64,000 nucleotides of DNA, taken from assembly GCF_003073045.1 (NCBI RefSeq), contig NC_037597.1, positions 7,746,717 to 7,810,716 of the forward strand, read 5' to 3'. Below, piece after piece: positions 2,379 to 64,000 of this stretch (positions are counted from its first letter, which is position 1; each line of letters opens with the position of its first letter). Source of the DNA: Pomacea canaliculata. Its lineage: Eukaryota; Mollusca; Gastropoda; Architaenioglossa; Ampullariidae. The notes under the pieces were generated by a model that saw only the letters and a list, made by a program, of their open reading frames with translations, was not told the origin of the DNA and searched no databases. Both the position numbers and the translations under genes were made by a program.

Positions 2379-2819
2379 ATGGATTCAAAAGAACTTAAAA
2401 CTGCTAAGGACGACAAGAAGTCTCGTGAATATTTTAAAGACCTTATCGACAGGGAAGAATACCTCTTAAAGAAACGCTTGCCACCGCGTCTTCCAACACG
2501 AAAAAACGATGTATATGTCTCAAGGAAGACAAATTTTGAAGCGCAGCTAAATCGCTGCCAGAAAATCCTGGACGTGGGAAATGAAGTTTACATTCATGGA
2601 CTGGGTTCAGCCATTAATCGCGCCATAAACTTAGCTCTTCAACTGAAGGAAAGAGGCGTTGGAAGTGTTGAAACTTCAGTTCATACCTCCACGGTGGAGT
2701 TGGTAGACGATCTTGAGCCTGAAAACGATTGTTTGGAACCAGAGGTACTTCGAAGACATTCTTCTGCTGTACACATACGCGTGTACAGACCAGAGGTTTC
2801 AGAGTCGACGCTTTCATAA
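2379..2819 (+). CDS. POP7: POP7/RPP20, ribonuclease P and MRP protein subunit p20
   Basis: Small Alba-fold subunit of the nuclear RNase P and RNase MRP complexes, which process tRNA 5' ends and pre-rRNA; it normally pairs with RPP25. The intronless frame gives 146 residues, close to human RPP20 (140). It contains YLLKKRLPPRLPTRKNDVYV, then KTNFEAQLNRCQKIL, EVYIHGLGSAINRAINLALQ and TSTVELVDDLEPE, each nearly identical to human motifs, and ends in the basic strand SAVHIRVYRPE. The open frame extends 12 codons upstream to 2343, but those codons look unlike the family, so I start at the Met at 2379 (MDSKELK). The gene is divergent from ARV1. Confidence 0.93.
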   Translation: MDSKELKTAKDDKKSREYFKDLIDREEYLLKKRLPPRLPTRKNDVYVSRKTNFEAQLNRCQKILDVGNEVYIHGLGSAINRAINLALQLKERGVGSVETSVHTSTVELVDDLEPENDCLEPEVLRRHSSAVHIRVYRPEVSESTLS

Positions 2820-11400: not shown

Positions 11401-12389
11401 TCTCTTAACTGAAGTTAACATTATACCTAATTTAAGTAATAAAAAAGTACATAAAAGTTTAAAATAAATTTTAACAGTGGGAATTGTAACAGTTGGAATA
11501 GAATCCAAATCTGTTTTTCTCTATTTAAATGACAATTTAATTACCTTTTCAGTATATAAACTACTGCACCGATTTCTCTTCTGTAATGCCATAAAAGGAA
11601 GCATACACAAGTTTTTTTTTAGTAAATGGAAAAAAATATAATTATAGCAAAGTCTAAAGCAAAGAGGTAGCAGGGGCTTAAAGCACATACATATAAAAAG
11701 TGTGTTGTCATATTCTCTCTGTTAACCAAATAAAACTGTTCACTTGTTCTTTGTTAGGATGCTAACTTCAGTGCTTCCACAGAAGATCTCCACTCACTTT
11801 CTCAATTAATACTGATTTTGAGCAAATTTTACTCAAATGCTTTGTGACAAATATCTAAAAATGTGTGTAAAGGTAAATTTATGAGATACGTCTTACGGAA
11901 AAAGGAATAAGTCCCATAGCTTTGCAGCTGTAGGCTCAGTCAACTCTTATGGATTACCCTTGTCTTTAAAGGGCACATCATGAGGAGAGAGAAGCTTAAC
12001 CCTCTCCTTCCAACCCCTTTACCTCCTTTTACAGATTAGGTATCCTACTTTAAGGACAGTGTGATTTTTCAGTCACAGATAGCCTTGAACCTGAGAACTT
12101 TTAGGTGTTAAATCTTGAACATTATATCCTCTCAATAACTTTAAATTTAATCATCACAACAAGGTCAACATTCTGTTGAACAACATTTAAATTCATTTTT
12201 TTCAATAATACTTCTTACTCTGTCTAGCCAGTTTTATTTAAGAATTGTTCTTGATTATTCTTTAACACAATAAATAAGAAAAATAATCAAAAAGCTCTCT
12301 GGGGATGCACTAAAGGCAGACAATTATTAGGAAGAACAGGTCAGCCCATTGCTCAGAAGTTGCTACAAAGCTTATGTTGTGCTTTGATT
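8422..12389. other. Intergenic region between DPY30 and PNP 3' ends
   Basis: The genes on both sides end here (convergent). The stretch holds the DPY30 3' untranslated region, a palindromic CRE-like word GCTGACGTCAGC near 8872, several poly-A/T tracts, a SINE-tail-like motif near 10818-10845 and an RTE-type LINE fragment at 10863-11410. A further diverged repeat with a B-box-like end may lie at about 11930-12130. No other exon could be supported. Confidence 0.45.
10863..11410 (-). mobile_element. RTE-type LINE, degenerate 3' end of the reverse-transcriptase ORF
   Basis: Minus-strand frames encode the C-terminal signature of RTE-like LINE polyproteins: LLYGSESW, then LRRILNIFWPNALTNEELHQ, RLWRWIG, RWTPDGRRK and finally LTWGHLERVSANRYRWRTLV near the end. 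The segment is spread over at least three overlapping frames (11362-11000, 11157-10882, 11087-10863), so it carries frame shifts and is dead. It is 5' truncated, as LINE copies usually are. A second copy of the same general type lies in PNP intron 2 (17640-18020) and a longer one in PIGF intron 3. Confidence 0.8.
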
Positions 12390-18300: not shown

Positions 18301-21300
18301 CCATGATGAAGTTAATGAGGTGGGTGCAAGCGATAGTGCAGCTTGCGAGCTATAAGTGCTAGTGAAGTGGATACTAGTGGGCTAGGTGCCAGCAAGTTGG
18401 ACGTTAGCGATGATGCAACTAGTGAGGAGGCAGAGGTCATCAACGGAATGATGAATCATGTGAGAGGAAGAGCGGGGTATGAAAATAATCCTGAGCTTCT
18501 TGATGGCCAGGAAGGTCGGAATTGCGAAGAAAGTAGCCAACTGCAGACAGAGCGCTAGTTAGCAGTGCTGGGTCATTACAGGATGTTAAAAGTGGTGGTT
18601 GCGGGATTCGAGGATCGGCTGGCAGTGCAGATCCACTGCAGGTGGATGATGGTGGCGAAAGCACCGACTGGCGAAATGAAACTGCTGCAGGCTGATGGCA
18701 GTGGCTATCGCAGGATGTGAATGCCGACTGCCGAGGTGATACCACTGCAGGAAGTGAGCAGCCAGTGTCTCCACGAAACCACTGCAGATAGGTGTCAGGG
18801 CCAAGAGCTCGGCACAAGCGCATACTCTTGAAATGAAACCACTGCATGCAAGTGGCATTGGAGGTGCCATTGCAAGCAGGAGACAGCTACAGTCCTAAAG
18901 GGCTAGGGTCAACTATCTGTAGGTTCTCACAGGCGGTTGATGTAGGTAGTGCTAACAGAGGAGAGTCTATTGTCAGTTTCATCCTAGCTGTCGTCATAGA
19001 GACCAAAGTAAAGAAACTGCTAGATTCTAGACAATCAGAGATGAAGGAAGGAGTGAAAAGTTTTTGGGATTAGCAAATTATTACTGCCGTTATGTACCTG
19101 CCTTTGGCGCCATTGCAGCCCCACTGTCAGACCATTTGAGGAAAGGCAGTTCGGACAGGGTGAAGTGATCAGAACCATGTCAGAGGGCCTTCAACACATT
19201 CAAAGCTAGTCTTGTGTCAGGTCACATGACCAAAATGACAGACATGACGAAACCCTTTCTACTGCGAACTGATACCAGTGACAATGGTAAGGTGTAAGTG
19301 CCATTCTTTTGCAAGACAATGATGGGATGTTACACCCGGTGGCATTCGCCAGTAGGAAATTGACCATTGCAGAGTGCCAGTATGAGACTGTTTGTGGAAG
19401 TATCGGGCCAGTTAGTTCAGATATAACTTGGGTATAACCAGGATCAATTGTAGTTGTAAGGAGTTTTATTTCACCAAAGTGGTGAACCCATCTTCTGATC
19501 TTAGTCTAGGAACCTGGGAATTTCCTTTTAGCAAGGGGGTGTCATGAAAGAGTAGAAATAGCACGATAGTGCGGGTGCCACATCTCACCCCATCACAAGT
19601 TAAGCAGACGCGAGAGTGGAAGGTCACATAGCGGTATAGCCATGGTCCATAGGTACGGCCGCTGCAGCATCGGGGAAATCCAATGATGGCCAGACACAGA
19701 TCAGGTCCAGGGGCAGCAGGGTGGCAAACTGTGTCTTGCACTAGTGGTGATGCATGATTGGTCGTAGTTGTGACAATAAGAGTGACTGGCCAATCGGGTA
19801 CATATGTGGCACAAGCCAGCCTTTTAATTTAGTACTGAAGCCAAAATCGTGGCTTCATCATCTGCCTACCTTCGTTATCGGCAGTCTTCGTCTCCTACAT
19901 ATGAATTGTGCTGTTTTGGGAGGGCTGAAAGGCATTAATCCTATTTCTTTATTTTATATGGGAATAATAGCTTTAATATATGGGTTTTTGACGTGCAAGC
20001 TTGGTTGTGGAATGGATTAGACTTGTATGTAGAGATGCTACTGTATATCTAAAACCAACACCTCCCTTAACTTTATGTATAAAAAGTTGTATCATTCATT
20101 CTTAACAGCAATAAAATCCACCACCTGAAATATTTGAAAATACCTTATTTTACTTACCTGTGCTAACAGGAAACTTGGGAATTTGAGAATAGCAGATGGT
20201 ATCAGAATTAGTTACATGGTTAGCTAAATCTCCTAGCCCTGAGCCACAAACTATACCAATCTTTGGCTGGATCTTGGTATGGCTCTTTATGTTCTCAGCA
20301 ATACTTTGCACTTCATCAAAAGAATATCTGAAATTAAACATCAAAATCAAAATTGAAGTACATGAACATTACTTTTTTTAATTCCCACAAGGACAATAAA
20401 ATTATCTTTTGAACAGTTACTTGCAACTTGAGCTATGAACACAAATAATAAATTCTGGGACAAATGTCTTGCAAAATACAAGGGTTGTCTTTATGTATAT
20501 AAGATATACTGTTTATGTGACATTTCTCATTAATTTATACAACATGCAATTCATACAACAAACATTCTTTCACTATCAACAATGTGTTGGTAGAAATTAA
20601 TCAGATTTATAAGTCAAATGCTTTATTTTTGCTCATTATCCAAGTAATATTAGTAGGAAGGAACCTTAAAAAGAGTTGTCTAGAATTTATATCATTAATT
20701 ACTTTTGCTGATGCAATATTTTTTATATACCTATCTGTGTAGTGTGAATGTATGGAAGAAAATAGAATCTATCACCCAAGGTTGAGATTAAATATAAATC
20801 AAAACTAGTTAACACTATCTAGGATTGATAATGTACTGTTCCCTGCATGAAGTTTAAAAAAAATGAAGGACTTATTTATTTTCGACTACGGGTCTCAGTA
20901 TTTTGAATTCCTATATGTCCCTTTTACTTCACTCAATTTTTTTAGCATCCTAGCTAGCTTTGAGAAAACAGTTTCTCCAATATATGGGATGCTGGTAGAT
21001 GTTCTGCCCTCTACCAATTCTGCATGCCTAATGTCTTCTTTGCTGTTTTCATTTATGTTCACTTCTTACTGGCCTTATTGATTTTTTCAATCATACTACA
21101 TGCTGAGCTTTCATTTATAAGACAGGCGCATGATTTATTATCATCAACATTATCAATATTATTATAGCTTATACTGAGGAGGGTTAATCTCTGATCGAGT
21201 TTGTCATTTTCCTTAGTTAGACATCATCTAACTTTCTATAAATTTCAGAGGATGGAACAGATCTGCAGGAATTTTTCCTAAACTAGCAGCCTTTAACGCT

Positions 21301-22088: not shown

Positions 22089-25000
22089 ATGGCGTCGTTT
22101 GGTACTGATAAAATCCCATCAAAGTCTATGATTACGTTTATAACGACTTTATGCATTATTTGGTGTTTTCTGTTAAGCGGAACATTAGCTTTGTCTCTGA
22201 CCATTAAATTTCCTCTCGATATCTTAGCAGAACCTCTTAGCAGCGTCAAAATAATAACACTTGTGACGGGAGGTGCATACATTGCCTTAGCAGCCTTGTC
22301 GTCTGCTCGCTTTTCTGTTAAAAGCATCTTTAAGTGCTGCTTCATCGTCGGATTGAGTTGTATCGTCTACCACTTTATCGCCGTTTTGTTCGGCGCACCA
22401 GCTATCGAGTAAGTGCAGTTTAAATTTGATATTTGGAACAGGTTTTAATAACCTGTTATCTCCCAAATGAATATTTGAGAGTAATTTTGTCTCCGTTGTA
22501 AAAGTTATTTGGAGTCCCCGGAACACACAAAAATGTTAGTGTTTGTTTTGCGTGTGTAGATAAAACCTGACATAAATATGACACTGGGATGACGAAATAA
22601 AAGAACCTCTTTGATGACTTTAGTGGGCACGTTGGCATGATCTCTAGCTGCCAGTTGAGACAGTAGATCCATGTTTATAAATAAGTCTTCAAAATAGAGA
22701 CCATAAGTAGCTGGATCAGCTATGTATTGTATAGATTCAAGACTATGCAAAAACCAGGAGATATATCCATCGCAGTATTTTCCTTTCCACAATACAATGA
22801 AAAACTGCAACAGTATTCCTTGCTGGAGCACATGACCCAATATTTATACCCAAACCTGATGGGCTTTTCTTTTATGAATTGTTTCAGGCTTGTTTTATGA
22901 TCAATGCTGATATTGGGTATAAAATACCCAAACTCGCGAAAATTCTCATTCAAGAGTTCAAACAACAGCTTCATCTCGAATGATCGATGACTTTTGTAGT
23001 TGTCTGCAGTAGCATTGTCCATGAAATAGATATTACTCTTCAATTTCTTAAATAGGTTTCGTGACAGCATTCTTGACAAAATGTACAAGAAGATGTTCTG
23101 CTTCGCTTTAATAGTCTGTTTCTGACAGGACTTATGGTATCCAGTTAGAATCAAAATCCCGAGAAAGACCTTCAGTTCTTTAGCTGATGTATGACATTCA
23201 TGATCGCTTCTAACATCAGTTGAATAGTGAACTGTTTCTCTAGCCACTGCATCGTACACCTCTGTCCCAAAAAACTCATCACAGGACCATGTTGGCCTAA
23301 AGTTTGTCTCACATTATTATCTGCTACAGAAGGTGCAGAACTTGTTGCAATACAAAATTTTCTTTCGTAAGTGAAAATTTTAGGATTTCTGATTATTGTT
23401 ATTGATATTGTAAGAAGAACTTGATTCTCTTCTCCTCTGGTTCAGCATTATCCCCCCTCATTGTCAAACTGTGTCTTCCATGTCTTCTCCAACCATTCTG
23501 GGAGCATTAGTAATAGGTGCATCACCTGCATTGGCAAGATCATCACCACCTTCATCTTCGTCTGACAATTCATTGGCATCCAGTGGTAGCACACAGATAG
23601 TAGATGCTGAGTATTCTTATTCACAAACTCTTCCAATTCCTCCAGGATAGTACACTTTCTTGGCATGTTTCACTACAAAAATGGGATAAATAAGGCTAAC
23701 AATCAAGGCACTATATACACACCATCATCCCAATGATGGAAATGATACGATATCATTCATGAGTTCATGGGATTGGAACAAAATCTAGCAAAAAAGGATA
23801 TGTAGATAGTATTTTTACATTGCATTAGTCCCTTAGTCTCTGCAAACTAGCACGTCTATGCTTACTATCACATGTAGCGAATGTCAGAAGCTACCTTCAA
23901 GGCCACAAAACACAACCTGCTACCCAAATGCTACATGGCACATGGCAAACTTTGCAGAAGTATTATGACAGACAACCAAGTCTTCTTTGAATGTCACCCA
24001 GATCACATAAATGCTTTGGTACAAAAGACATAAGCCAGTATATAACTGTCCTCTAAACTGGACATTAGGAGATAATGGGTTAAGGAAGAAGATATAAGAG
24101 CAATTTTCTATGCAAATATTCCCACCCCCTTTTTCACTATGTGTATATTTTCAATGGCTTAATCCCTTTGATCATGGGTTTATCATTTAATCAAATACTA
24201 ATTAACATCTTTCATAAATGCTATATTGTTTAACCACAGGTCAAGCAGAGAAACATTTCATTTTGCCATGTTGTTGTCAACACTAACTGTTGTACCCTCA
24301 TGCTGTCTTCTTGGGTCTGACATATCCAGATGGTCAACAGTATATGCCTCTTTCAGGTAAATCAACACTGCAGGGTTCTTGATAACCCTACAATACAATA
24401 ATTTTTGTTTTTGTATTGGCTGCAGAAGGCTATCTTTGAGAATGCATTACTGCATTTTAGCCAACTATAATGGCAAAAGTAAACTGGCTGTCATAAAGGA
24501 CGACCACTTTATATTGCTTATCTTTAATGTCCCCACACTAACTCACATAATGTTCACAACCAGGTTTGTTAACAGCAGAAAATTTTGTATAAACATACAT
24601 AAATATAGCATGTACTCTAAATGCTATGTTTTAACCTCTTAACAGGTCAACATTGGGAGCAGAAACAGCTGTGTACTTAACGTCAGTGTGTACCCTAGCT
24701 GGGGCTTGGCTTGGGGCTTTTCCTATTCCTTTGGACTGGGACAGGCCGTGGCAGGTTTGCAGGAGGTTTACACTTATGAACAATATTACATTTTCATGAC
24801 CAGTGACCACAACTTTCCCGTAAAAAAAAAAATTAAATAGGTTTTAAAAACAAATTTGTGGAAATATTAATTTCCAGGTTAACCTGTTCTACCTAATGCA
24901 GTAATATTTTTATTTTGCTTAGTAGGCAAAAATACCATTTGTGGCAAATCTCTGCTAAGCATTAAATTGATAAAGAATAAATTCATTAATGAAGCAAGTT

Positions 25001-26904
25001 TTTTTTGTAATGCATTACTGTCATTACATTTTGATGTACACTTTTTTTCAAGTCAATCTACTCTTTATGGTGAACCACAAAATAAGCACTTACTTCCATG
25101 TTGACCTATATTTCGCTGAAATGTTGAAACATCAAAATAGACCTAGGGTTATGTCTGTGCTGAAAGGATTAATATTCATGGAACTTTACCTAAAAGTATT
25201 ATTTGTAACACTGGATGGAACACTCTGAAGAGATTCTGAATCGACCTCGTCCACCATCCTTTCTTGACATACCACCAGCAACTGAACTTCAGGTCAACAC
25301 TAGCCTCCCACTAAGACAGAAATCATCAAAGCTATCAAAAGCATGAAAAGTGGCATAGCAGCAGGCCCAGATAGCATCCTTCAGAAGCACTAAAGGCAGA
25401 CCCAGAAACAACGGTAAAAATTTTACAGCCCCTCCAACACAAGATCTGGGAACAAAAGCTAGTACTAACAGACTGGAAACTAGACCACCAGGTCAAGTTA
25501 CCAAAAAGAGGAGAACTCTCCCAGTGCAACAATTAGCATGTCCATCCCCAGCAAAGTCCTGACTAGGGTAATACTAGAGAGACTGAAGAAAGCACTATAC
25601 AAGAGACTGAGACCAGAATAAGTTTTGCCAGAATATGTCTTGCCACTCTCTGCATCATCATTGAGCATATTGAGTGGCAATACCCCCTTTATAAAACTTT
25701 TATGGACCCCGAGAAAGCCTTTGGCAGTATAGACGGACATCATCTGTAGACTGATGATCCACTATTATGAAGACTGGTCCTGCCAAGTTATCCACAACAG
25801 CAAACTCACTAAACCTTTCGTAATAAAGACTGGCATAAGACAGGGTTGCATATTATCACCGACAATCTTCCTAATGGTCATGGACTGGATTATGTGCAAG
25901 ATGATCCAAGACAATAACACCAGTATCCAGTGGACCTTCGCCAAACAGCTAGAGGAGCTGGATTTTGCAGATGACATTAGTCTCCTATCTCATCGGCAGC
26001 AGCATGCACAAACCAAACTGAGTAAGCTAGCAGACTGATGTGATGAGAATTAACAAGCAGGAACTCCCAATCTAACTTCAAAGAGAGAACATCCTGGAAA
26101 CAGACTGCTTCGCATACCGGGAGCATTGTCAACAAGGATGGTGGAGCGAACATTGACATCAAAAGCTGCATCAACAAGGCATGCTTTCAACAGCCTATGC
26201 CCCATCTGGAACTTCCTAGCATTATCCTTCCACAGTAAGACAAGCATCTTCAACACCAATGTAAAAGCAGTCCTACTGTATGGTTCTGAAACCTGGAGAG
26301 TGACAAACACCATCAACAACTAGCTCCAGACCTTTACTGATGCCTATGCCATATTCTGGGAATAAGATGGCCTGAAAAATCTCCAACAACAGCCTGTGGA
26401 AAAAGAACTAACCAGAATGCCACTAGTCAAGACATCAAAAAGCGCAAATGGCGCTGGATAGGACACACTCTGCACAAACCAGCTGACAACCACTGCTAGG
26501 CAGGCACTTGACCGGGTCCTCTGGCGAGATGTTGCGGCCCTATGCTCCTCGAGGAGTACATGGAATAAGCAAAACTAATTATTTCTAACACTCATTTTAA
26601 TAGTAAACACTTGACTAACTGTGTATAGGATCTTGGGTTCAGTTAACAACATAGCTAAATTATTACCCAAATTGTTTGACAGATTAATGACTTATATTGA
26701 TGAATGACTAGTCTTTTTTCCATTGCCTCCCTCTAGAGTTAAGTAATCTGTTGAGAAACTGTAATCAGTATTCATCGTTATTTGCAGGTGTGGCCAATCA
26801 GCTGTGTCTTAGGATCACTGTTTGGGTACTGCCTTGGTCTTCTGGCTGCTGCCATTTACATCCCCTACAAATATAAAGAGCTGTCCAAGATGAAGCTAAT
26901 ATAG
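22089..26904 (+). CDS. PIGF: PIGF, GPI ethanolamine-phosphate transferase accessory subunit
   Basis: Multi-pass ER membrane protein that stabilises PIGO and PIGG, which add ethanolamine phosphate to GPI anchors. Four exons: 22089-22408, 24240-24356, 24646-24754 and 26788-26904, joining in phase to 220 residues (human 219). Conserved parts are YHFIAVLFGAPAIE at the end of exon 1, ETFHFAMLLSTLTVVPSCCL in exon 2, GAWLGAFPIPLDWDRPWQ in exon 3, and VWPISCVLGSLFGYCLGLLA in exon 4. The frame is open upstream to 21846, but the Met at 22089 (MASFGTDK) gives the family's usual length. Intron 1 carries a piggyBac remnant and intron 3 an RTE-type LINE. Confidence 0.95.
22445..24083 (-). mobile_element. 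piggyBac-type DNA transposon remnant in PIGF intron 1
   Basis: Minus-strand frames (23666-23448, 23259-22720, 22840-22505) match piggyBac transposase, DDE_Tnp_1_7 type: SAKELKVFLGILILTGYHKS, MDNATADNYKSHRSFEMKLL, LKQFIKEKPIRFGYKYWVMC, LYCGKENT and then YGLYFEDLFINMDLLSQLA. The pieces need frame changes, so the transposase is dead. Candidate ends are TTAA at 22445-22448, near CCTGTTATCTCC, and TTAA at 24080-24083, preceded by GGAGATAATGGG. These give inverted ends and the TTAA target typical of the superfamily, although the left end is shifted by a few bases. At about 1.6 kb it is shorter than an intact element. Confidence 0.82.
25238..26540 (+). mobile_element. RTE-type LINE, degenerate reverse-transcriptase ORF in PIGF intron 3
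   Basis: Plus-strand frames contain a LINE reverse transcriptase: KSMKSGIAAGPD-like start near 25340, then IKTGIRQGCILSPTIFLMVM and LEELDFADDISLLSHRQQHA with the F-A-D-D catalytic box near 25965. Beyond it come VLLYGSETWRVTNTINN and the RWRWIG-type end. Stops and frame shifts are scattered through it, so it is inactive. Endonuclease sequence was not seen, which fits 5' truncation. Confidence 0.85.
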
Positions 26905-29014: not shown

Positions 29015-32000
29015 TTAGTTTAAAGAGCCAGAGTTAAAGGAAAACCTTTGTCGAAGCTGAAAGGTTTGTTCTTTGTCCACTTCTTGCACAGAATCTTCTA
29101 CCTTGTAAAAATCTTCCCCAGGTGAATCTTCTGATTCCTTAAAATTTAAAGACATTTTACCTACAGTTTTAGCTGGTCTTGAAGTAGGTGTCATTGTAAA
29201 CTGCTGAATGTAACCTGAAATAAAGATAAAATGCAAATAATGTACAGGTAAAAGTGTTTCAGAAACTTTAAATAATACATGGCAACATGACCGTTCATTA
29301 AAACTGACACATTGACAAGAATAATGTACTGCTGCTTTACCTTTCTGCATATCCTTTTCCGATTTTTTGTCCTCTTTCAGTAGAACGCCTAAACGCTCCT
29401 TCCTTGCTTGATATGTTAGTTCCTGCTTCTCAGGCTCCTCCAGCATTTGTGTGTTCTGTGTGTTAATCTTATACCAGGAAAGTAGTGATACCAAAGACAG
29501 CCACAAAAAATTGAAGGTTATTCCTATTAAAGCACTTGTGAATGGCCAGAAAAAGAGGTAATATCTGCAATAGGGTAAGAGAAAATACCTCAGTGTTGAT
29601 GGCATGAACCAGATATTTACTGATTTAGTATCTGGTATTAAAGGTTATGTTTTTAAATACATGTAAGTACCATTAAAGATCTTTTCTAGACTAACAAGAT
29701 GCAAAATATTCAAAGAATGAGCTACATCAGAAGACATAAAAAACAAAATTAACTTTGTATGTTGAACATTATACCTTAGACCCTTGTACACAGCATGGAA
29801 CTTAAGTTGACCAGAATAAAATTCCAGTTGCCTGCTATGGATTTCGACCAGTGCTCCTACTGCTGGATGGTACTGTTTAGGGGTTTAAAAAAAAATCCCA
29901 TAAAAATGTTTATTAAAAGTCTGTGGATGTGTATCCAAGTGGCCTTTGTTTACATGTAAAACATGCTGCTCTTGCTATTTAGTTTGAAAATTATATCTGC
30001 ACCCATTAAATATTTTATGTTCTTCTTCTTCTATTCATCAACAGTTACTTTAAAAAAAAGAAATAAATGCCTTTCATGAAAAATATAACCCAATATGTAC
30101 TTTCTCTGACAGCACATGCACGTGTGTCAATGCATGTATACAGTTTGTTTATTCACTCCTTCATTAACACACTCATGCCTTACCACATCATCCCAAAATT
30201 TATCAAAGAGTTCTATGCTCAGGATTTGTTTCTGTTCGAAGAAACCAAGTAAATAGAGGGGAGACAAAGACACTGTCTGTATGGTCTGCAGCAGGTTAGA
30301 CTGGTAACGCAAAGCTGTCTGCAAATGCAAAAACAAATTAACAAATTAAAAAGAAAGTTGAAATCTCAAAAAGGCTTATTAAGCATAAAAATCTTAAAAT
30401 AAGAAAAATATTATTAACTCCACTGGCTATTATAGGAAAAAAAAGGTATACTTAAATACATGCACATGCACACTCTCTCTCTCATTCGCATACATCGCCC
30501 ACACATTTCAGATTCACCATAGATACCAAAACACCTGAGCATGCACATACACATTCAGGATGCATCAGCAAAGATTTTGCCTACAGGTGATGGGTCACAG
30601 CCAAAAGTTCTACTAACTGCATGCACCACCACAACTAATTGTCAATAATTGCCAAAAAACAGTCACCTAAATATCTTATGCTATGAAAGTGTTCACAATA
30701 TCAAGCGATGAAAAATAGTAGCACTAATGCACCATATCCTAAAGCAGGACCTTTTTATGAAGATTCTAGTTTTATATGTTTCTAGCAATCCGCAAAGCCA
30801 CTCCTGACTCTCATATCTAGATGTCACAATCTTTATTCAAATTATGGCCTCAGAAGATAAACCAGCCAATTTCTTCTTTCATCTTACCCTGCTGGCATTT
30901 TCTCTTATGTAATCTGAAGTACATGTAATTAAAACTTACTGCCCTAGATGATTCTTGTATGATGTTGCCAAATCTGTCATACACTCTCATGATGATCATA
31001 AATGTACCTGCAGTGACAATGGTTACACTTAGTGTGTAGTTTATGAAAAAAACTTTGCAGATGTGTGCTGTGTACATGCACATGCATCCTAATCCCAGGA
31101 TGAACACTTTGCAAACAATGCTTCAGATTTTCATTTAAAGATCCATGCTTAAAATAAATGAGTGAAACAAAATTTGTTTTATTTTCATTCTTAGGAAAAT
31201 GAAATCTTCATAACTGCAATAAATTAAATCAAAAAGCATCTCATTTTTCTTCTGTTCACTTTTATGATCAAGGAACATGTAAACATGAGACTTAAAAGAA
31301 TCACATGTAAACAGGTTTTTATAGCACTGAATTCTGATACCCAAATTACATGAATGCTTTTTGGATGCATTATTATGGATCAAGTGATGCCAGTACGGAA
31401 ACACACCTAAATCTCTGTTTGTCATTGAATCAGGAACTTCCAGATCAAAGGAAATGCGATACTGCTGACCTCTGCCCAGAACCTATTAAGAAGAAACTCG
31501 GATTATGTAAGGAAAATTTGGAGAATGGGATGGGGAACAACCTAAACCTATGCATGTCATAGCTTCTCAGCCTATACATTAATATGTTACAAAAATATCA
31601 TTCAGCTTGCTACTTAGATTTTTGGCATCATCATGTTCTGTCTTTCTACTCACGATTGCTACGTCCATAAGATGAAATGTTCTTTCCTTGCATAATTAGA
31701 AATTTGGGGGAGGGGTATTTTTCTATAATCTAACATTATAGTAAGGTTGTTACTGTACATCGCTATTTAGCTTAGGCAGGGATGAATATGCACACACATA
31801 CAACATCAGCATACTATCCACCCAAACACTGACACAAAAGCCAAAATGGAAAATAATTTCCTTTTTCACATGTTACAGTTCTTCCATGCTTAAAGGAAGA
31901 TCCCACCTCCTAGTGTATGAATTGTTATTATGTAAACATAATATCATTTGCTTAGAACAAATTTAGCATGTCATTTAGATTTTTGCAGACAACTTTACTT

Positions 32001-33417
32001 ACATGACTACCTTTTAAGAAAACATCCTTTATATGATTTTTCAAAATAGAACTCTACTGAAAACCAGTTGTAGAATGTGAAAGAAAAGTAAATGCCCAGA
32101 TAAACTGACTTTGTCTAGTGATTGAATGGGTTCTCTAATTACTAAAGACACAATTTTTATTTTTAAATGAAGTAAATCAAGATGTTTGACAATTCTCGTT
32201 TCCAAGTCTAGATAAAGTTTCATATCAACTTTCAATAAATAAGTCATCAAAGCAAAATCCCCATAAAAACCTGTAAACATATTTTTATTTCCAATAAAAA
32301 TACATCAACAAGATACAAAATTGATTATTTTTGCACTTAAAATACCTTACCTCTGCCCTTCCCTCCTCAGACAGTGTGACATTTGCCATGGGAAAGGAAC
32401 ACATGCCAACTCCAGATGGACAAACTCTGGAAGAAAATTTGGTACATGTCCTTAGACATTGTCATGATTTTTACAATTTTTGGAGACTGATAACATTGCC
32501 CAACTGAAGGCAGAAGTATAAATGCTCATTGTGCAATCCTTATGACTGCAACTTTTAAACTAATTGATTTAAGATTCTTTCCAGAATGTACAGCAGCTTT
32601 AAAATCTTCCTTTATTTCTTCATTGATACATTAAAAAAGGGAGGTAACAAAAGTGACTGGCACGTCTACATTTTCATAATGATAGTTAAAAAGTATTGCA
32701 AAATATTTGTTTACGTTATGATTTTATTAAATTGCTTTACCTACGGGTAATAGGTTACCTATTTGTGTTATTTGATGCACAAACAGAAGGAAACAGAGGG
32801 ATACAATTTGCCTCATGATTAAAAATATTCATTTCTGCAAGTTTAGCCAGTTTCATAAATAAAATAACACTTTCTACATGCACCACTAATACAATCTCTT
32901 TTCTATCTTAAGCAGTGGGTCGCTTATCTTTACTGCAACTTCTCAATTTCCACAAAACTGTGTTGCATGCTAATGGAATTTCCCTGCTACAAGTTATTCA
33001 ATTTATCGAGTGCGTACATCAGGGATTTTATTTAAAATGAAAAGTATTAGTATAAAACTTAAAGCCAGAAGTCATCCTATCAATTAACCTAACAAAAGAA
33101 TGAATACGAAACAGGTCATTTTACGCCTAACACTCAATGAAATGTTAATAGAGAATCTCATTATCAAAATTCTTTTTGAAGTATGTACTTTCGTCGACTG
33201 TTGTTTACCTAAACTTGAAGTGTGCTGATCGTGCCAGAGATGCAGATGGCACGTAGATGTGGTAAAAAGTGGCATAAAACACAACTGCAAGCCATGCTAA
33301 AAATGAGGCGAACGCACCATATAGTATGACACGTTCTATCGTCTTTGTAAGCGTGAAGAGGGTCCATAAGGCCAAATTGTGCCACCAATCTACAAGTAGC
33401 CTAAAGACAGAGAACAT
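29015..33417 (-). CDS. BSCL2: Seipin (BSCL2), ER lipid-droplet assembly protein
   Basis: Oligomeric ER membrane protein at ER-lipid-droplet contacts that controls droplet formation. Eight minus-strand exons: 33417-33209, 32426-32351, 31482-31407, 31007-30940, 30318-30184, 29872-29775, 29564-29341 and 29214-29015. They close in phase to 361 residues. There are two membrane segments: ILYGAFASFLAWLAVVFYAT (exon 1) and the stretch around FWPFTSALIGITFNFLWLSL (exon 7). The lumenal domain between them carries CSFPMANVTL with an N-glycosylation site (Asn85, the counterpart of human Asn88), DLEVPDSMTNRDLG, SSRA, LGFFEQKQILSIELF and VEIHSRQLEFYSGQLKFHA. The cytosolic tail is acidic and lysine-rich and poorly conserved. 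The first ATG at 33417 is used. It is divergent from PAPOLA. Confidence 0.95.
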
Positions 33418-34246
33418 GGCAAACAACTATCAAACTGGTGCTGTTGCGAACCTACACGACCCGCCCTTCTTAAGTAGTTAGAGTTATCTAACATTTCTGA
33501 CCTTTGCACCCCTTCAGTCATTGACAAAATAAATAAAGACAAGATTCACTAAAATGATCACGTGAAAAAAACGAAAAATAAACATGATTACTTTAAGTGT
33601 TTAATTAGAGAATAACTTGCAATAATGTTTGCATTTATGCAATTTGTACGGTTTGAGGTCGACCGGATGTTGATTACAGACTTGTGGGAATAACTTCAAC
33701 CCGCCATTGTTGGTCACGTTTGGCTGGAAAACATAAACTTTATGGTCAGTTAGGAAATAAATATTAATTCTGCCTAATCAGATGGCTTACTGACATATCG
33801 TCCGAAGTAAATTTATCCACAATAAGGTAACTTCGCTTAAATGCGACCTATTTGCGTTACCTTTTGCTACTATTTACCCCCTCACCGAGTTGAGGAGATA
33901 GTCCTCCATTCAGAATTAGTGTCTTGATTGATAAAGAATCCGATATGATGTATTAACTGAAATACAAATTATGATTTCGACTTTGGTATCGATTCCATGA
34001 AGTTGTAACCAGTGAAAAAGATTTTGTTTATTGTCGTACTGTTAATTATTTGACACCAACGTTCCTTAAAGGTGAGTCGCTGAGCAACAAAAAGTATGCA
34101 GTTTCCGCGGATTTTCGCACTTACATTGCTGACAGTAACAAGCAAACTATGTTCCTTTTTCGCTCTACATCATTCTTTCCAGAACACAAAAAAGTCACGC
34201 AGTATAATAATAATGTTTACTTTCTGTTGTTAGAGATTTTGACACC
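33418..34246. promoter_or_regulatory. Divergent BSCL2/PAPOLA promoter interval
   Basis: About 830 bases separate the two start codons, which read away from each other. The interval includes both 5' untranslated regions. A short open frame (34050-34295) overlaps the poly(A) polymerase start out of frame and looks incidental. No specific factor site is claimed. Confidence 0.45.
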
Positions 34247-52577: not shown

Positions 52578-55500
52578 TTACATCATGGGTTGGGACAAAG
52601 AGTTGTTATCTGGGAGATGATCCTGTTTGAAGCCTTCAACAAGCATGTTGAGAATAAAGTTGATTGTTTTTTTGTAGATATCCTCAATATGCACTGTATA
52701 CCGATCTCCAAGAGTGTCGCTAACAGCCAGGAGGAAGGGTTCTTCCAGAAGCTATCAAAGGAAAAAATAATACATTTTCATGTGGTGTTCAAAATAAAAT
52801 AGAAATTGCAAACAGTGATATTTAACAACAAAAATGTTCTGTTACTGGCACAATGAGCTGTGTAAGCTTATGAATTACGCTAATTGCATAAGGGACAGCA
52901 AATGCGTCTAGAGAAAGCAGTTATATCCCCTAAAGCTCTTTAGTAGGAAAGTAAGGGAAATGGATGACGAGTCGTCTGCTAGGCGTCATAGGCAAAAACA
53001 AAAGGAACTTAAAAAAATGTTAATTGAGAATGAGTTTTATCGGATGGCGAAAAAGCTGTCTCCAGGGGATACAAACTAGTACATGTTTTCTACTAATTGT
53101 GAAAAACGTCAATTCTGACTCAAAACGTAAGAATATGAATTATTTTGGAGAGCATATATACGGAGTAAACTAAAACTCAACTTTCTGGCTGACTCGAACC
53201 TGTCGCGTAAAAAGTGGTGAAGGCGTAAGACGTGGAACGCAGTAAGTATAGCTTAAAACAGTTGAAATGATTAGAGAGTCTTTAAAATATCATTATGATT
53301 TCTGGCTCATGTGTTAAGTGCATTCATTCTCGTGTATAATTTTCGTTATACATGTTCGAGCCTAACTCACCAAAAAGACGTTGGGATCAAATCCATCAAA
53401 GCGAAAGTGACCTTTCCCACTTTTAGAAGCATGTTTATGACACTGTCTGCATCATCAAGCGTTGTGATCGCTTCGTCGATGGTGAACATGACGCCACGCA
53501 CGTGACTTTCTAAAAGCTTGTTGTTGCGAAGATCAGTGAGAGTAGTAGCAGAGTCAAATTGTTTGAAGAACTTGATCGCATCTGCATTCTTTTCGAACAA
53601 GCTGTAATGGAAAAAAAATGTAACTAAGACGCAATCCTCTTTACAAATATAATTGCAGTCGAGTTTTATTTTCAATAATCTAACTTGCAGATTCAATTAT
53701 ATTAGGAACTAATTAATTGATTATTAGTATTATTATATTGCGCCAGGTTTTCGCTAGAAGCTATATACTCGTCGCAAACAACAGATCCACACACACAGTC
53801 AATTTGCTACTCGAAAATATGATCTCATACAGTGTTTAATGAAAGTTTCCTGCACTGGCAGGAAATTCCAAAATGTGGGTCCAAATGCTTACAAAATATC
53901 AATTGCAGCATTGTACTTAGAAATCTTTGCTTTTTTTTTAGCAGAAAGATATCTTGGGTCTCTGCGCCCGCAGTGATTTACACTAGTGAATAAAATTAGA
54001 ATCGTACAACTTACAGTCGTCTGCATTTAGGGATAGAGGTGACAATCGGACCGAATGATAGAATTTAGATTCTAGAAGCTTCAGTGGACGGTGTTGGATC
54101 TCTGATGAAGATATGCAGACATTTCCAACGGCCACTGACTGCTTAAGTTGGGTGAGGTTTGGCCTGAGCGTTGTGCACCGAAACACATAAGTCGATGAAA
54201 GCTGTTCGCGTAAAATCGCGTGATCGATGGCAGATAAATCCAAAAGGAGCGAGTAATGAGATATATTTACGTTCAGAGGTATTCAAGAGATTATTCACCA
54301 GCAGAGTGCAGCAAGACTTACAATAGGCTGACTGGTAAGGCGTGAGAAGATCATTAGCCTCCGCCTGATCCACGAGCTTCAGCAGGACAATAAATTCAAT
54401 TACTTTTGAGAAAAAGACTCTGATCTGTAATTTTTCAAGTCTTCTGAGGTCATGTTGGCTTTCTTAAGTAGGGGTCTTACTAGTTATCGCGTTTAAAAAC
54501 AGTTATATGACTTCCAGGTGAAAAGAGAAATACACATAATATGTGTCTAGTTCCTGGTGGTCCTGACGTCTTCAAACTTGTTTGAAAGAATCTGGAGCTC
54601 CAACGGACCTGTCGGTTGTCATTATAGCATTTTTAGACTGAGCAATAATATCAAGATCATGTCCGATTTTTTCGATCTTGTCCGAAAAAGTCGCAGAATA
54701 ACTGCACAAGATCAGCTGAAGATCTTGAACTAAGTACGCGTCATCAGCCATGTCCCGGACAGCAGGACATGTAACGCAGTTCATTCTTTCTGCGAAAACG
54801 TTGTGTGCTCGAGTCAACATGTGTCGGTCACGATAGGTAAAGCCACGCGTGCGAATTGAGTATGCAAAAGAGCGAATGTTAGGGGTTTTAAAAGTGCAAA
54901 ATGTTCGAGAAAGGTGAATAGTCATCTATGTTCCGACCGACCGTGAAGTTGCGCACTTCCAGAACTACAAAAGTCGAATTATATGTGGGAAGTGGAGATT
55001 ATACCTGCCTTGAGAAATGTGGTCAATAGTTTTTTTTTAAATAATATATAAACAGTGTCTAATTAACTGTGACCGCTATATCGGCATAGCTTAGTTCGAA
55101 TCGAGGCTGAGCCTTCAACAACAGACTTCGTCATTTAACCAGCCAGGAGATAGGACGATAAGCCCGCGTCGACGTGTACATCGTGCTGCGACGAAGCTGT
55201 CAACCCGAAAAGCCGGCGCCTACTGTGAGCATTTGTAAGGGGTGCAACGTCAACCCCGAGAGGCGATATTGGGACTGTATTCAGAGGACGCCGATTCCAG
55301 AGAGACGACCTCGAAATTTAGTCACACAAGTGGCAAGTCGTATTGTACGAAATCATATAAAACCCCTTTTCCAACTTCAAGCTGCCTGCCGGCGAAAATC
55401 GTAAGCCAAGAACTGAACTGTTGGAAAGGGATTAATTCTGTTTTCTTATTTCTTTTGGTATATCGTTGAATTTCTCGACGCTGAATGACATCAACTCGAT

Positions 55501-56499
55501 ATGTGTTAGATAATTCAAGGGTAGCATACGTGAAATTTATTGGCTGTTGGACGTTATTTTTGTTTGTTGTATGTATTAAAGTAGACAGGGCCAGAAAAGG
55601 TAAATGTAGTTTGTATAGTTCGAGAGAAAATAAAACTGCGTGCATGATTGAGACGAGGCGTTCACGAGTGTTGTGACAATCTGTCATGCGGACACTTAGC
55701 TAAACTATTTCCAGGGTGGATTACTACTGTCGCATAAAGATGTTTGCCCTTTGTGATCACGTCGTTCTCTCGAGTTTTAGACCAAACGTAATTCTGATGA
55801 TAGCAGTCTTTACCCACCTACTTTATTTTTAATGTCATTTAGAAGTACCATATGAAAAAGATGTGCGGCAGATAGAGTTAATTTATCCTTCACTAGAAGC
55901 GGTCAGGATATCTAGTGGAATTTCATATGTAACTTTCAGATACGCTCATCGTCATCACCATCAACATAACTCTTATTTCACAATGACTATGAATCGCCAA
56001 ATTACTCTGCCCCAACTTTTGTCAGGAAATCTATAGTTATGTCTAGCCTAAGATGTATGTTATGAAAGGGCAAAGATATTGAAGATATCACTTTTCCCCT
56101 CAAGATATAAGACAAAAATAAAACAGAGCGCTATAGTGACAAACTTTAAATTAATAATGTTAAAATAGAACCGTAATAATTTGATTATGTTGATAGAATG
56201 ATTTACAATTGACAAGTAATTAAATTCATTCCCGAGGTAATAGCAAAAAAGAAGTTTACAGCTTACCTCATAAACATGTTAATGCCTGTTTGGGATATGT
56301 TGCGACCGATAGCTTTCCAAGATCTTTTGATGAGAAACTTCTGTCTCCGTGTTAGCTGGATCCGCTCATCGTCCTTTAAGTTTCCGTCTGGGTCATTGAG
56401 TTCAGACATTACATTTTTGTGGCACTGGCAGCGACATTCGGTCGATCCTTGAGAGTAGATACTGTAGCCTTGAAGTGATGAAGACACCTGACAGCCCAT
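52578..56499 (-). CDS. Membrane-anchored-type globin (globin X/neuroglobin-like), frame interrupted
   Basis: Heme globin. Three minus-strand exons: 56499-56267, 53601-53371 and 52751-52578. Introns fall in phase 2 after helix B (MFM/SLFEKN) and phase 0 before LLEEPFLLAV, the ancient B12.2 and G7.0 positions. Exon 1 encodes MGCQVSSS (N-myristoylation plus palmitoyl-Cys type), a CRCQC cluster and LTRRQKFLIKRSWKAIGRNI of helix A/B. Exon 2 has FFKQF (CD1 Phe) and LLESHVRGVM with distal His111. The F-helix segment GHFRFDGFDPNVFL, with the proximal His, is in the next frame: exon 2 is one base short near 53411, and exon 3 (DTLGDRYTVHIEDIYKKTIN) agrees only with that shifted frame. With the frame kept it would be about 212 residues. 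Either an assembly error or a pseudogene. Confidence 0.82.
53985..54925 (-). mobile_element. CR1/jockey-like LINE remnant in globin intron 1
   Basis: Minus-strand frames carry worn reverse-transcriptase motifs: SYSATFSDKIEKIGHDLDII (linker before the polymerase), LLTPYQSAYCKSCCTLLVNN (a YQSAYR-type motif), MDLSAIDHAILREQLSS (palm A-type) and LSLNADDCKLYDS (the ADD catalytic box). The order along the minus strand is correct. The pieces lie in different frames, so the copy is dead. Confidence 0.7.
55069..55678 (+). other. Possible solo-LTR-like fossil segment
   Basis: A GC-richer segment with a TATA-like word (CATATAAAACCCC, near 55349), a polyadenylation-like AATAAAACTGCG (near 55629) and outer edges TGTGACC...GTTGTGACA. 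The order suits an LTR, but no matching target duplication and no internal retroelement sequence was found. Fossil solo LTR is a guess. Confidence 0.25.
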
Positions 56500-57166
56500 G
56501 CTTATTAATCCCTTATAGTTTCACTCACCTTTTTAGCAAATGTTTCTTGATTTACGTCCAGATGGCTTATAGGCGAAACGTTTAACAAAATTGGCCTTTT
56601 TCTGTGAACTTTATTTAATCTTACGAAATTTTGGAGACATTTTAAAAGTATTTTCACAAGCGATACTGACCAGGAGAAAATTTACCCAGCAATAATAGTT
56701 GCAATTAGCTTCTTATTTATTAGTACCAAACGGTCTAGACATTTATTATTGAAGTCAGAGTACTTGTTCTTTAGACAGCGTGAAGCAAATATATCACGTT
56801 TACATCAGTTTTCATGATGTCGAATTGAATGCTACGCATGACTGATATTTCGAACTTAACGGACACTTCAAAAGGCAAACCAGTCAGTTCCGGCAATGTC
56901 TGTCTTTTATAGGGAAACGTCGCGGAGCACAGCTAGCATTGGCAGAGCATTGTAATTTATGAGTATCTTAAGCCGGTGACGTAAGTCTGCCATGGCACAC
57001 CCATTGCCGCCATTTCTGCATAATCATCTTGTGTCCATCAAGATGTTTCAGATGCAAATTTTACAAATTGAGCAGAGACGAAATATCAACGAGTAAATCA
57101 CTAGCTAATAATTACTAATGTTATAACGCCCGTGGTAGAGTTGAATCGATTCTGGCCAACTTGTAA
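56500..57166. promoter_or_regulatory. Upstream region of the globin gene
   Basis: Sequence 5' of the minus-strand globin. It should contain that gene's promoter and leader. No repeat or exon was recognised. Confidence 0.35.
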
Positions 57167-60400: not shown

Positions 60401-61707
60401 GGAGCATGACGTGGACTTCCTCATACATACATACCTTGACTAACATCAACAGACGAGCGTGTATTAGGAGCGCTTGATTCAGGTGCAAATAGTTTATTGC
60501 CAGTTTCATTTGATGTAGCAAATTACTAACATGATAAGTCAACATAAGCATTTTAAAATAGTGATCTGTATTTGGCACAATTTGGACGTACAGTTAAGAA
60601 TTACCCATTTACTCAATTAAAGAAAATTCATTGAGCTTTCTTCCAGATTACCCGTAAGGAAAATATTTTGGGAGGTATAGGAGACAGACTTTTTTTTTTT
60701 ACATGATCTGGGTAATAAGGCCACTATAAAAACAAAAACTCTACGCTGCGTGAATATGCGCAAACAGAACTGCATTGGATGCGCGAAGTTGATAATTGAA
60801 AACTAACAAATAAAATGACCATTTATATTACGCCTTCAAGACATCGTATGCTCAATTAATTGATTTGTCTTTGTACAATGACTAAATGAGCTAGAAGAAG
60901 TCATGTTTTAAGACAGTGAATCAGAAGCTTGATATCGATGTACAGTATAAGCATGTATATATAAAGATATCAAACTATTGACGAGCAAAATAGGAAAAGT
61001 AAAAAAGCAAAAAGAGGATCAAAGACATCATAAATAACCGATTTAAATTAACATTGTCAATATTGTAAAGGCCTATTAATATTATGCATCATCATCATTA
61101 CTTTCGTGTAGTGTTTTATTAAATATTTAGTATTTTTAAAATATTAAATTTTTGGAATGCAAAAGTCAAAGTCAAATTATACGTATCTGCTGTTGTCTTA
61201 AAAATACGTTTAGTAATTCTGAAACATCACTTTTAGCATATAACAGCATATATGTGTAGTTTATATGTAAGAAAAGCAAGTGATGGTCAGACGTGCGAAG
61301 GAACATTGAATCTGAAGTCTCTCCATCATGGTGTCTTTACAATATTTATAAACATAGGGTATTTACAGGCCAAAAGAGAACTGTATAGCAAAGAAGAATA
61401 AAGAAGACTTTAAGTCATAGTGGTTCTTTTCTTTTTTTGATTACCGCCACAACGTCTCAGAAACTATTTAGTATCTCTTGCTGCGGAAGTTCTAAAAATA
61501 TTCTTTTTTGTTTACTTATTTGCTATCAGATGATTTGGTCATAAGCTTGTGAATTTAAAATTAAGTAAATAAAACAATTTGGCAAAAAAATAAAGTTAAA
61601 AAGAAAAGTTCGCTAACTGTAAAATTGCCTCTGGCCCAATGCTTTTCTTTAAATTTCAGGCGGGGAACTGAAGAGTGAAATGCACTGGACTTAAGAAATC
61701 ACAGTCA
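57443..61707. other. Intergenic region between the globin and the BAD-like gene
   Basis: AT-rich spacer. It contains a diverged tRNA-like SINE candidate (59320-59560), a C run near 59831, a GT microsatellite at 60011-60025 and poly-T runs. A GC-richer stretch at 60140-60440 has no recognisable coding match. No conserved exon was identified. Confidence 0.4.
59320..59560 (+). repeat. Diverged tRNA-like SINE candidate
   Basis: TGGCCGAGTGATCTATAAC near 59328 resembles a tRNA-Ser/Leu A box, and GTATTTGAATCCTCG near 59397 a B box. The body reads CCGAGTGCCTTGATGGTTCC and ends near GATGATCAG. The A-to-B spacing is longer than in a tRNA gene. No target duplication was found, so this is tentative and unlike the SINE at 3477. 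Confidence 0.4.
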
Positions 61708-62696
61708 CTAAAACCAGTGGTGAGTGCCAACAGTCTCAGGATATGATGATGAATAATGACTGCCTACAGATGAATCTTCGTCCTCCTCTCTTACGGTCAT
61801 CTGCAATACAGGTACGAAATGTTAGATATGAATTGATTTTCGGTTCTCTAGATGACGTTCATACCTGACCTTTTGCAATCATGAAGATACTGGGTCCCAC
61901 TTTGTCCTCACGTCCTGAAGAAACCTGATATCATGTTTGAATGAAATGTGGGGTGGTGGTGGTGATTGTGGTGGTGGTGATGGTGGTGGTTGTGGTAGTG
62001 ATGGTGATGGTGGTGGTGTGAAACAACCAAAATTTGAGAAAAAAAAAACAAAGATTACTGCTACGTACCAAGGGTCTCCGCGAACGCTCATATACGAATT
62101 CATCACTCATACGCCGCAGCTCGCGACCCATTTCTCTGTGTTGCAGCCACCTCACGTCCGACTCGGAGTATGATCTGTCCCGCTTCGGCATACTTCTCCT
62201 ACCAGCCATCGTGGTCCGCTGCTGTTGCAACATTTGCTGGTGGAGATAATGCTGTTGTTGTTGCTGCTGTTGATAATGTACGTCTTTCTCGTGGCTGAAA
62301 GAGTAGGACCGTTGTCGCCCTGAAATTAACAAGTTAAAGATGATAACGATCATGACATGCAGTTTAATTGGTCCAGAAACCAGTTTCGAGACTTTGATAA
62401 GCTCAAGGATAACCCATAACGACAGTATGGCCAGTCTTTCAACAACACACAGACCTACGTCATCACTGTCATATTATATCAATGGTAAGAATATCTTATT
62501 TGGTCAATCAATCGTATTTTGTTGATATTTCTCGAGAAGCTCGAGGTGTTTGCATTCACAGTATTCATATACAGTTATTTGAACAAGGGACTGGCAACCA
62601 AACGGAACTAGTGAAATAATCACAGGAAAATCAACATTACTTTTAAAGACGTCCACATCACTGCTATTTACTTTTCTTATCACCAACGCTTTATAC
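61708..62696 (-). CDS. BAD: BAD-like BH3-only apoptosis regulator (3' part of gene)
   Basis: BH3-only proteins bind and neutralise pro-survival BCL-2 proteins. The core minus-strand exon 62319-62069 encodes GRELRRMSDEF, identical to the BH3 core of vertebrate BAD, preceded by W and followed by basic residues. Upstream in the same exon are RQRSYS and RDRSYS, both RxRxxS sites of the kind phosphorylated by AKT/PKA in BAD. The second sits before the BH3 at nearly the same distance as human RGRSRS. The Ser in RRMSDEF is also kept. A glutamine run (seven Q) lies between. A probable preceding exon 62696-62641 joins in phase (YKALVIRKVNSSDVDVFKR). 3' exons start at 61914 (short end DVRTKWDPVSS) or 61906, the latter running to 61865 and then 61800-61708 (MTVREEDEDSSVGSHYSSSY...). 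The first coding exon is not identified. Confidence 0.75.
61945..62022. repeat. GGT trinucleotide microsatellite in a BAD-like intron
   Basis: Imperfect (GGT)n with GAT and TGT interruptions, between two exons of the BAD-like gene. It produces a long Pro/Ser- or Thr-rich frame on the minus strand that is an artefact of the repeat. Confidence 0.85.
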
Positions 62697-64000
62697 CTGA
62701 GGTAATCCTAAATACTAAAGTAAGGGTGGGATGTGTATAGCAAGTTCATTTAGCTCGGCTGTCAACACTCAGTAGGGTGGCTTATCAAGATGTTCTACTT
62801 TACAGAGCGCTATTGCATGTTCAAACATGACCTCATTTCTCACATTGAATTCAAAATACAAAGTGATGTATTTGAATTTACTCCTGCTTTCAAGTCATGC
62901 TTTTTTTATTATTCAGTACCCGACGTGATTATTTATCGTTCTAATAGACTATTTTACAAATTATCTTTGTTTTAAAGGGAGGAGAGGGTTGATTTCTCTC
63001 TCCCTGTGTGTGTGCACGCGCGCGCTCGTGTGTTTGAACCCATAGGCCTGCGACATGTGTCAAAACATACGCGACATCTATCTGCCTTTAGAATGGATCA
63101 AAACATTTTGTCTTTCTACATTAATACGTACTTGGCACTTGCTCCATTAAATGCCGTATTTCTAAAATCATCGTTCATTATCGCCAACTACAAAAAGCTA
63201 AGATCATAAGAGCACTAACAAAACGTCTACAAAAGTATCCTATGTTCTGCAAATATCTTGAAAGTTGTTTATCTATACATATCGATATCAATAGTGGAAC
63301 TTAAATAGTTTATCGACAGCAGGTCAAGTTAAAAGATAGCGCTGACGTAATGTAGGTCACGAAAGCTGAAGTAGACAACACTACAGGGGTGCTGCGTGGA
63401 TTCTTTGGAGGGTCTAAATGATTACTCAAGCAGAGATAAAAGAAGTGAGATGTCATATTTAGGTTCAGTCGTGACTAGAACTTTTTGCACTCAGTGAGTT
63501 CCTTGTCAGAAACAAATCTGTTTACTTCTCTATTATCTGAAATTGGTAACGAATATATAAAGTGGTCACAAACAAGTGAATGTAACACAAGATCATTCTA
63601 AAATTTAATTCTTGCTTAGTGTTGTGTTGTATATTACATTATGTAGATGTCACAGTTTCTTGTTGTGTGTGTATATATATCTATATATTACAATTTTTGC
63701 TGCCCATCATCTGCAGATGTAATGAACTTTCAAGTCGATTTGTCCAGCATTTTAATGCGCATTATACTGGTTTCTGAATGAAGTATTTATCATGTGCGCG
63801 CCAAAAATGGACAACTAGATGTTGCTGCCACCACCGCCATCACCACGACTATTACCACTGATACTACTACAACTACAAATCACAGCTGCAAGTCAAAAGA
63901 CTGTCAAAGAATAGAAGGCTAGGAATGGATATTCTGGTAGCAGTTCTGAGCTGTAGTGACTATATTTATGCTGAATTCATTCATCTTCTTAACATAAAAA
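62697..64000. other. Right-hand end of the window, upstream of the recognised BAD-like exons
   Basis: No exon was recognised, although the 5' part of the BAD-like gene should lie here or beyond position 64000. There is a TG/CG-rich low-complexity run at 63003-63032, a TA-rich run near 63672-63690 and an ACC/ACT trinucleotide-rich patch at 63822-63880. Confidence 0.4.

Follow-up and report, generated by a model that had tools for sequence, protein, structure and literature searches.

A candidate BAD-type BH3-only gene in a 64,000-nucleotide window of the Pomacea canaliculata assembly

BAD and other BH3-only proteins

BAD, which to our knowledge is known from vertebrates, is the textbook connection between growth-factor kinases and the mitochondrial machinery of cell death. 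Human BAD has 168 residues and the Ser136 site of the mouse protein is of the RxRxxS type; BNIP3, to which we return below, belongs to a different family. Unphosphorylated BAD places its BH3 helix in pro-survival members of the BCL-2 family. Binding of 14-3-3 is promoted when Ser112 and Ser136 are phosphorylated, and a phosphate on Ser155 blocks the BH3 (PMC1368972, PMC3916415; here and below, statements attributed to a paper refer to the excerpts of it that were consulted). Mammalian BAD phospho-peptides with Pro at +2 include RSRMSSYPDRG and RGSRSAPPNL (PMC1368972). Zebrafish bad has four exons, the third of which ends with the BH3 and the fourth of which holds the stop codon; Ser84 and Ser103 of the protein correspond to mouse Ser136 and Ser155, and Ser112 is not conserved (PMC3916415). 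Since residues 88-113 of zebrafish Bad start with ALW (PMC6148235), the Trp is residue 90, which puts it 6 residues after Ser84 and gives 19 residues between the two serines.

As regards molluscs, no BH3-only gene was detected in bivalves in 2013 (PMC3634015); in 2017 a BH3-only homologue was stated to be absent in Crassostrea gigas, 'nor ... in the entire Mollusca phylum' (PMC5550854); and in 2022 BAD was listed among the proteins missing from oyster annotations, BH3-only members being described as yet unidentified in molluscs (PMC8917759). A 2022 study of the bobtail squid counts Bnip3 as BH3-only and Bid as absent, and its main text has no occurrence of BAD (PMC9389742); this BNIP3, from a mollusc, is like the gene described here in being called BH3-only. 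A survey of the same year, seeded with human Bim, Bad and Bmf, reports probable BH3-only proteins in deuterostomes except urochordates and, potentially, in Lophotrochozoa, those of schistosomes and Hydra being already known; coelacanth and zebrafish have a Bad homologue in that survey, lamprey and hagfish none (PMC8998228).

Nematode EGL-1, the schistosome and Hydra proteins, Drosophila Sayonara, and the echinoderm, hemichordate and cephalochordate candidates all resemble the present gene in having a lone BH3 within a protein that is unrelated in other respects (PMC8998228, PMC10107002). They differ from it in that no combination of BAD-like phospho-sites with a BH3 is described for them, as judged from the published descriptions consulted. 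An invertebrate BH3-only gene is thus not new as such, because there are candidates in cnidarians, schistosomes, echinoderms, hemichordates and cephalochordates, and the probable proteins of PMC8998228 limit novelty, above all if the animal is a deuterostome. What does appear new is an invertebrate gene with an unchanged BAD BH3 core and phospho-sites nearly in register; the excerpts of the literature that we searched yielded none, and no molluscan BAD either (the search covered article listings and excerpts; sequence databases may contain automatic annotations).

The BH3 exon and its resemblance to BAD

The stretch of DNA analysed (the window) comprises 64,000 nt of Pomacea canaliculata, namely positions 7,746,717-7,810,716 of the forward strand of contig NC_037597.1 in assembly GCF_003073045.1; all positions below are relative to it. 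The features that recall BAD lie in one exon:

62069-62319, minus strand: BH3 exon with both RxRxxS sites, the Gln run and the BH3 (exon 3 of the proposed four-exon model)
62300-62317, minus strand: RQRSYS, first RxRxxS site by motif count, a possible but uncertain counterpart of mouse Ser112
62252-62272, minus strand: Gln run of seven residues, located between the RxRxxS sites, as read from the exon translation
62165-62182, minus strand: RDRSYS, second RxRxxS site, in a position comparable to mouse BAD Ser136 (Trp 6 and BH3 Ser 20 residues further on)
62096-62131, minus strand: BH3 core MGRELRRMSDEF (h1 M, h2 L, h3 M, Ser-Asp, h4 F), from identity to BAD, PDB matches and predicted helix

The open frame of this exon reads RQRSYSFSHEKDVHYQQQQQQQHYLHQQMLQQQRTTMAGRRSMPKRDRSYSESDVRWLQHREMGRELRRMSDEFVYERSRRPL, giving the product RQRSYS...KRDRSYSESDVRWLQHREMGRELRRMSDEF. 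The exon is bounded by the acceptor TTAATTTCAG/GGCGAC and the donor CCCTTG/GTACGT, is entered in phase 1 and left in phase 0, and keeps its frame intact over 83 codons; GC content is 53% within it versus 35-37% in its flanks. Its splice scores are modest (1.4 for the acceptor and 1.9 for the donor, on an approximate scale). Judged by its sequence it is a real-looking coding exon, and the original prediction had placed it exactly, with an open frame between a consensus acceptor and a consensus donor.

That prediction took GRELRRMSDEF to be the core of the human BAD BH3, and residue for residue it does equal positions 111-121 of human BAD in the sequence given by PMC9171138. Over the 12-mer that includes h1, the exon matches human BAD at 11/12 positions and zebrafish Bad at 9/12, the two vertebrate proteins matching each other at 10/12 (counted on the printed sequences). 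By contrast, only 3-5 of the 12 positions are identical in the BH3s of human BID, human BOK and zebrafish Bik, Bmf, Bid and Noxa; these six score 15-30 versus 55 for human BAD, and they have Gly or Ala where the exon and BAD have Ser. The h1-h4 residues are spaced 4-3-4, exactly as Y95, L99, M102 and F106 are in zebrafish Bad (PMC6148235). The exon thus has the marks of a BH3-only protein (hydrophobic residues at h1-h4, Leu at h2 and the invariant Asp) together with one that is specific to BAD, a Ser of phosphorylatable type ahead of the Asp in an RRxS context, as also in human BAD. This serine, within RRMSDEF, is Ser 71 of the exon reading and is the conserved PKA-type site that had been claimed. 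When the exon alone was modelled as a single sequence with AlphaFold2 (mean pLDDT 75.3, pTM 0.33), a helix covering the BH3 was predicted at residues 52-79, with block-mean pLDDT values of 92, 97 and 89; a second, less confident helix (12-34) spans the Gln-rich part, and the low-confidence stretch between the two carries the RDRSYS site.

The other two serines of interest, Ser 6 and Ser 51, lie in RQRSYS and RDRSYS, so that two RxRxxS sites followed by RRMS do occur in the order seen in BAD. RxRxxS is found 26 times in the 127,996 residues of the six frames, which predicts 0.017 occurrences per 83 residues; the exon has two. As in BAD, where a basic site stands about 19 residues ahead of the BH3 Ser, the serine of RDRSYS stands 20 ahead of it; the Ser-Trp and Ser-Ser distances are 6 and 20 here versus 6 and 19 in zebrafish Bad (A7MCM4). 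A Trp between basic site and BH3 is likewise shared with human BAD, although it is 7 residues before the Gly of GREL and not 8 as originally counted (in the BAD peptide of the PDB it is 6). The match of RQRSYS to Ser112 is uncertain because its serine lies 65 residues ahead of the BH3 Ser, versus 43 in mouse (by residue numbering). Furthermore, both RxRxxS serines lack the Pro at +2 of 14-3-3-type sites, having Ser instead (RSYSFS, RSYSES), and 14-3-3 affinity may therefore be below that of the mammalian protein. The claim that the whole phospho-switch is preserved is thus borne out in part: the RDRSYS site is placed like mouse Ser136 and the BH3 Ser is kept, but the +2 prolines are missing and the Ser112 counterpart is doubtful.

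The remaining differences from human BAD are one extra residue between Trp and BH3, Met in place of Tyr at h1, and the Gln run. Zebrafish Bad for its part reads GQQLRRMSDEF, and it has no equivalent of Ser112, whereas the exon has an additional upstream RxRxxS.

The Pfam family BAD (PF10514) ranked first among families for the exon (E 0.0024, 18.8 bits), for an earlier gene model (E 0.0057, 17.5 bits) and for our 148-residue model (E 0.006, 17.4 bits), and the sole match of a 35-residue block (E 2e-4, 22.3 bits), with an alignment that is colinear across the RxRxxS site and the BH3. Over these four queries the scores of 17.4-22.3 bits lie below the family's gathering score of 28.2, and the Pfam scans of the exon and the models found no similarity to BAD outside a block of about 37 residues. 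Because this cut-off is not reached, both +2 prolines are absent and a single species was covered, formal membership of the BAD family is provisional. Matches to Tis11B_N, DNA_methylase and KPBB_C (E 0.08-0.26, exon and models) were dismissed as weak. In the PDB, the best 4 of the 10 matches listed are BAD BH3 peptides (E 0.003-0.22, the top one stapled); PUMA peptides, CREB chains and a designed protein, also among the matches listed, were dismissed as weak (E 0.45-0.86). No Bcl-2-fold Pfam domain was detected in the tentative 148-residue model at E up to 10, in keeping with a BH3-only protein, which has no BH1, BH2, BH4 or Bcl-2 fold. The NCBIfam scan gave no match, nor did the Rfam scan at the gathering score or the tRNA scan.

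How far such a likeness could arise by chance was gauged with the human BAD BH3 12-mer, scored without gaps against all six frames of the window and of 100 dinucleotide-preserving shuffles of it. The best score in the window is 55, at the BH3 exon, versus a maximum of 30 in the shuffles (mean 24.1, s.d. 2.3). The observation of a BAD-like exon as a whole holds. The spacing of the sites was treated separately, with 200,000 permutations of the 64 residues that precede the BH3; these keep the Arg/Ser-rich make-up of that stretch, and the criteria were chosen after the exon had been seen. Two RxRxxS motifs occurred in 0.48% of permutations, one at 18-21 residues before the BH3 Ser in 0.79%, both together in 0.053%, and a near RxRxxS with Trp at +6 in 0.015%. 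A degenerate pattern for GRELRR[x]SDEF had two matches in GTDB, both reading GRELRSLWDEF; as GTDB (257 billion bases according to the search tool) is prokaryote DNA, this is a rough null only. The degenerate BH3 pattern had 0 matches in IMG/VR, and of 37 stretches matched there in a search for relatives by peptide pattern none was confirmed.

Gene model and neighbouring genes

Exons on either side of the BH3 exon are proposed as follows:

63132-63178, minus strand: tentative exon 1 (MNDDFRNTAFNGASA), from an in-phase chain, donor score 2.4
62641-62696, minus strand: tentative exon 2 (YKALVIRKVNSSDVDVFK), with the same donor, 62641, as originally proposed; from an in-phase chain, fourth of five by score
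61708-61800, minus strand: proposed last exon, MTVREEDEDSSVGSHYSSSYPETVGTHHWF and stop, with in-phase acceptor TGTATTGCAG/ATG (score 2.6) and a phase 0 junction, by consensus only
61115-61120, minus strand: AATAAA, candidate poly(A) signal from the sequence, about 600 bases past the last-exon stop

Exons 3 and 4 join in phase at sites that follow the splice consensus, and the full four-exon model gives 148 residues, a size similar to that of human BAD; the N- and C-termini of vertebrate BAD are, we presume, not recognisable in it. The DEF of the BH3 is nine residues before the donor of its exon, and the proposed stop exon, 61800-61708, comes next (by splice consensus). If this model is right, the arrangement, like the total of four exons, would parallel that of zebrafish bad, where the BH3 likewise closes the last exon but one. 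In the intervening intron, some 50 bases past the BH3-exon donor, there is an imperfect GTG trinucleotide tract (61948-62018, 24 copies, 76% matches).

The upstream exons were obtained by enumerating in-phase chains with an approximate splice consensus, and splice sites upstream of the BH3 exon are weak. The options in phase were three one-exon and five two-exon chains. The chain that we kept (63178-63132 plus 62696-62641) scores 1.4 and was preferred by judgement over three higher ones (5.5, 5.5 and 4.3) because those need exons of 11 or 18 bases. The splicing of 62641 to 62319 proposed originally is supported as an in-phase option, being used by two of the five two-exon chains, those in fourth and fifth place by score. 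None of the three in-phase single first exons joined directly to 62319 was convincing, and a microexon at 62660-62641 between 63132 and 62319 was rejected (acceptor score -14). Translation might instead begin at the in-frame ATG within the presumed intron (MIVIIFNLLIS...), which the splice acceptor makes less likely. The real first exon may also be outside the window, past its edge at 64000.

Other genes could be recognised in the window:

2331-2819, plus strand: POP7/Rpp20, in one open frame
12390-20368, minus strand: exon pieces of purine nucleoside phosphorylase (PNP), by similarity to 2qpl
31135-31482 and 33205-33426, minus strand: two seipin exons (both a little short of the Pfam cut-off, E 4.3e-5 and 0.0012)
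53367-56520 (about 53.4-56.5 kb), minus strand: globin gene, with a Pfam Globin match only for 53367-53696

POP7 is identical at 71/113 positions to chain G of 6ahr, which we take to be human, and is without the 7-residue insert of that chain; the joined PNP pieces are identical at 144/264 positions to 2qpl, presumably bovine. The joined globin pieces have 5ziq ('Globin protein') as best PDB match (E 6.8e-8), and MGCQVSSS, in the first exon of the gene, could be an N-terminal signal for a lipid anchor, which we take to resemble that of globin X. To judge from these sequences, the neighbouring genes fit a non-mammalian, probably invertebrate, genome. The CpG observed/expected ratio of 0.47 does not by itself exclude a fish. 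The window also holds a piggyBac-type transposase piece (Pfam DDE_Tnp_1_7; 22720-23313, minus), a DUF6451 piece, apparently from the end of a LINE (11000-11404, minus), and a reverse-transcriptase piece (25733-26038, plus).

Origin and possible function of the gene

We consider it likely that this locus holds a BAD-type BH3-only gene, that of a probable invertebrate and most probably an orthologue of vertebrate BAD, with a putative switch of the kind proposed. The BAD-type BH3 claimed at the outset is supported by the 11/12 identity, and exon, order of sites and BH3 Ser all stood; the completeness of the phospho-switch has to be qualified. Homology to vertebrate BAD is very probable, and orthology is probable.

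The main competing explanation is convergence, in which an unrelated Arg/Ser/Gln-rich protein has gained a BH3-like linear motif, as the dipteran Sayonara did. BH3s are linear motifs that can evolve anew (PMC10107002), and likeness to BAD was not found beyond the 37-residue block. We nevertheless think this unlikely, for identity extends to residues that a generic BH3 does not need, including the Ser; the six other BH3s score far below human BAD; the spacing of RxRxxS, Trp and BH3 is nearly that of BAD; and the proposed exon layout resembles that of zebrafish bad. Rather less probable still is that the locus is what remains of a BAD gene, decayed or unexpressed. The weak splice sites of the tentative upstream exons would suit a relic, but the intact frame of 83 codons, the consensus splice sites on either side of it, raised GC and an unchanged GRELRRMSDEF core would not.

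Contamination of the assembly with vertebrate DNA, or a vertebrate BAD acquired by recent transfer, could account for a BH3 12-mer closer to human BAD than that of zebrafish Bad itself (11/12 versus 10/12). The exon, however, lies within 64 kb that also hold the POP7, PNP, seipin and globin genes, and the identities of PNP and POP7 to mammalian chains (144/264 and 71/113), the only ones compared, and the absence of the POP7 insert argue the other way, as do the flanks, the Gln run and the last exon, which we take to be unlike vertebrate BAD. A vertebrate source, discounted from the start, is accordingly very improbable.

If the locus is a BAD-type gene as we favour, its mode of action may be envisaged by analogy. 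The BH3 segment, as an amphipathic helix, would occupy the groove of the animal's own BCL-2-like proteins and so free BAX/BAK; survival kinases would phosphorylate RDRSYS and RQRSYS, and 14-3-3 would be recruited; and a PKA/RSK-type kinase would phosphorylate the Ser in RRMSDEF, blocking entry into the groove. Binding, phosphorylation, effect on cell death and transcription are all inferred here from mammalian and zebrafish BAD.

A bolder proposal is that the gene is a BAD orthologue of a protostome, a mollusc, in which three serines form the kinase switch; that the last ancestor shared by protostomes and vertebrates already had growth-factor kinases controlling mitochondrial apoptosis by way of BAD and 14-3-3; and that the reported absence of BH3-only and BAD genes from molluscs reflects a failure of detection; we see this as evenly balanced. 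Were the molluscan origin true, the reported absence of BH3-only proteins and BAD from molluscs would be overturned, and if the animal is a protostome the BAD switch would date to early bilaterians, before the protostome-deuterostome split. The RxRxxS-W-GRELRRMSDEF block offers a searchable query for other phyla. Finally, seipin (BSCL2) and BAD are both on human chromosome 11q, and the presence of seipin in the same window as the BAD-type gene may be a weak hint of old linkage.
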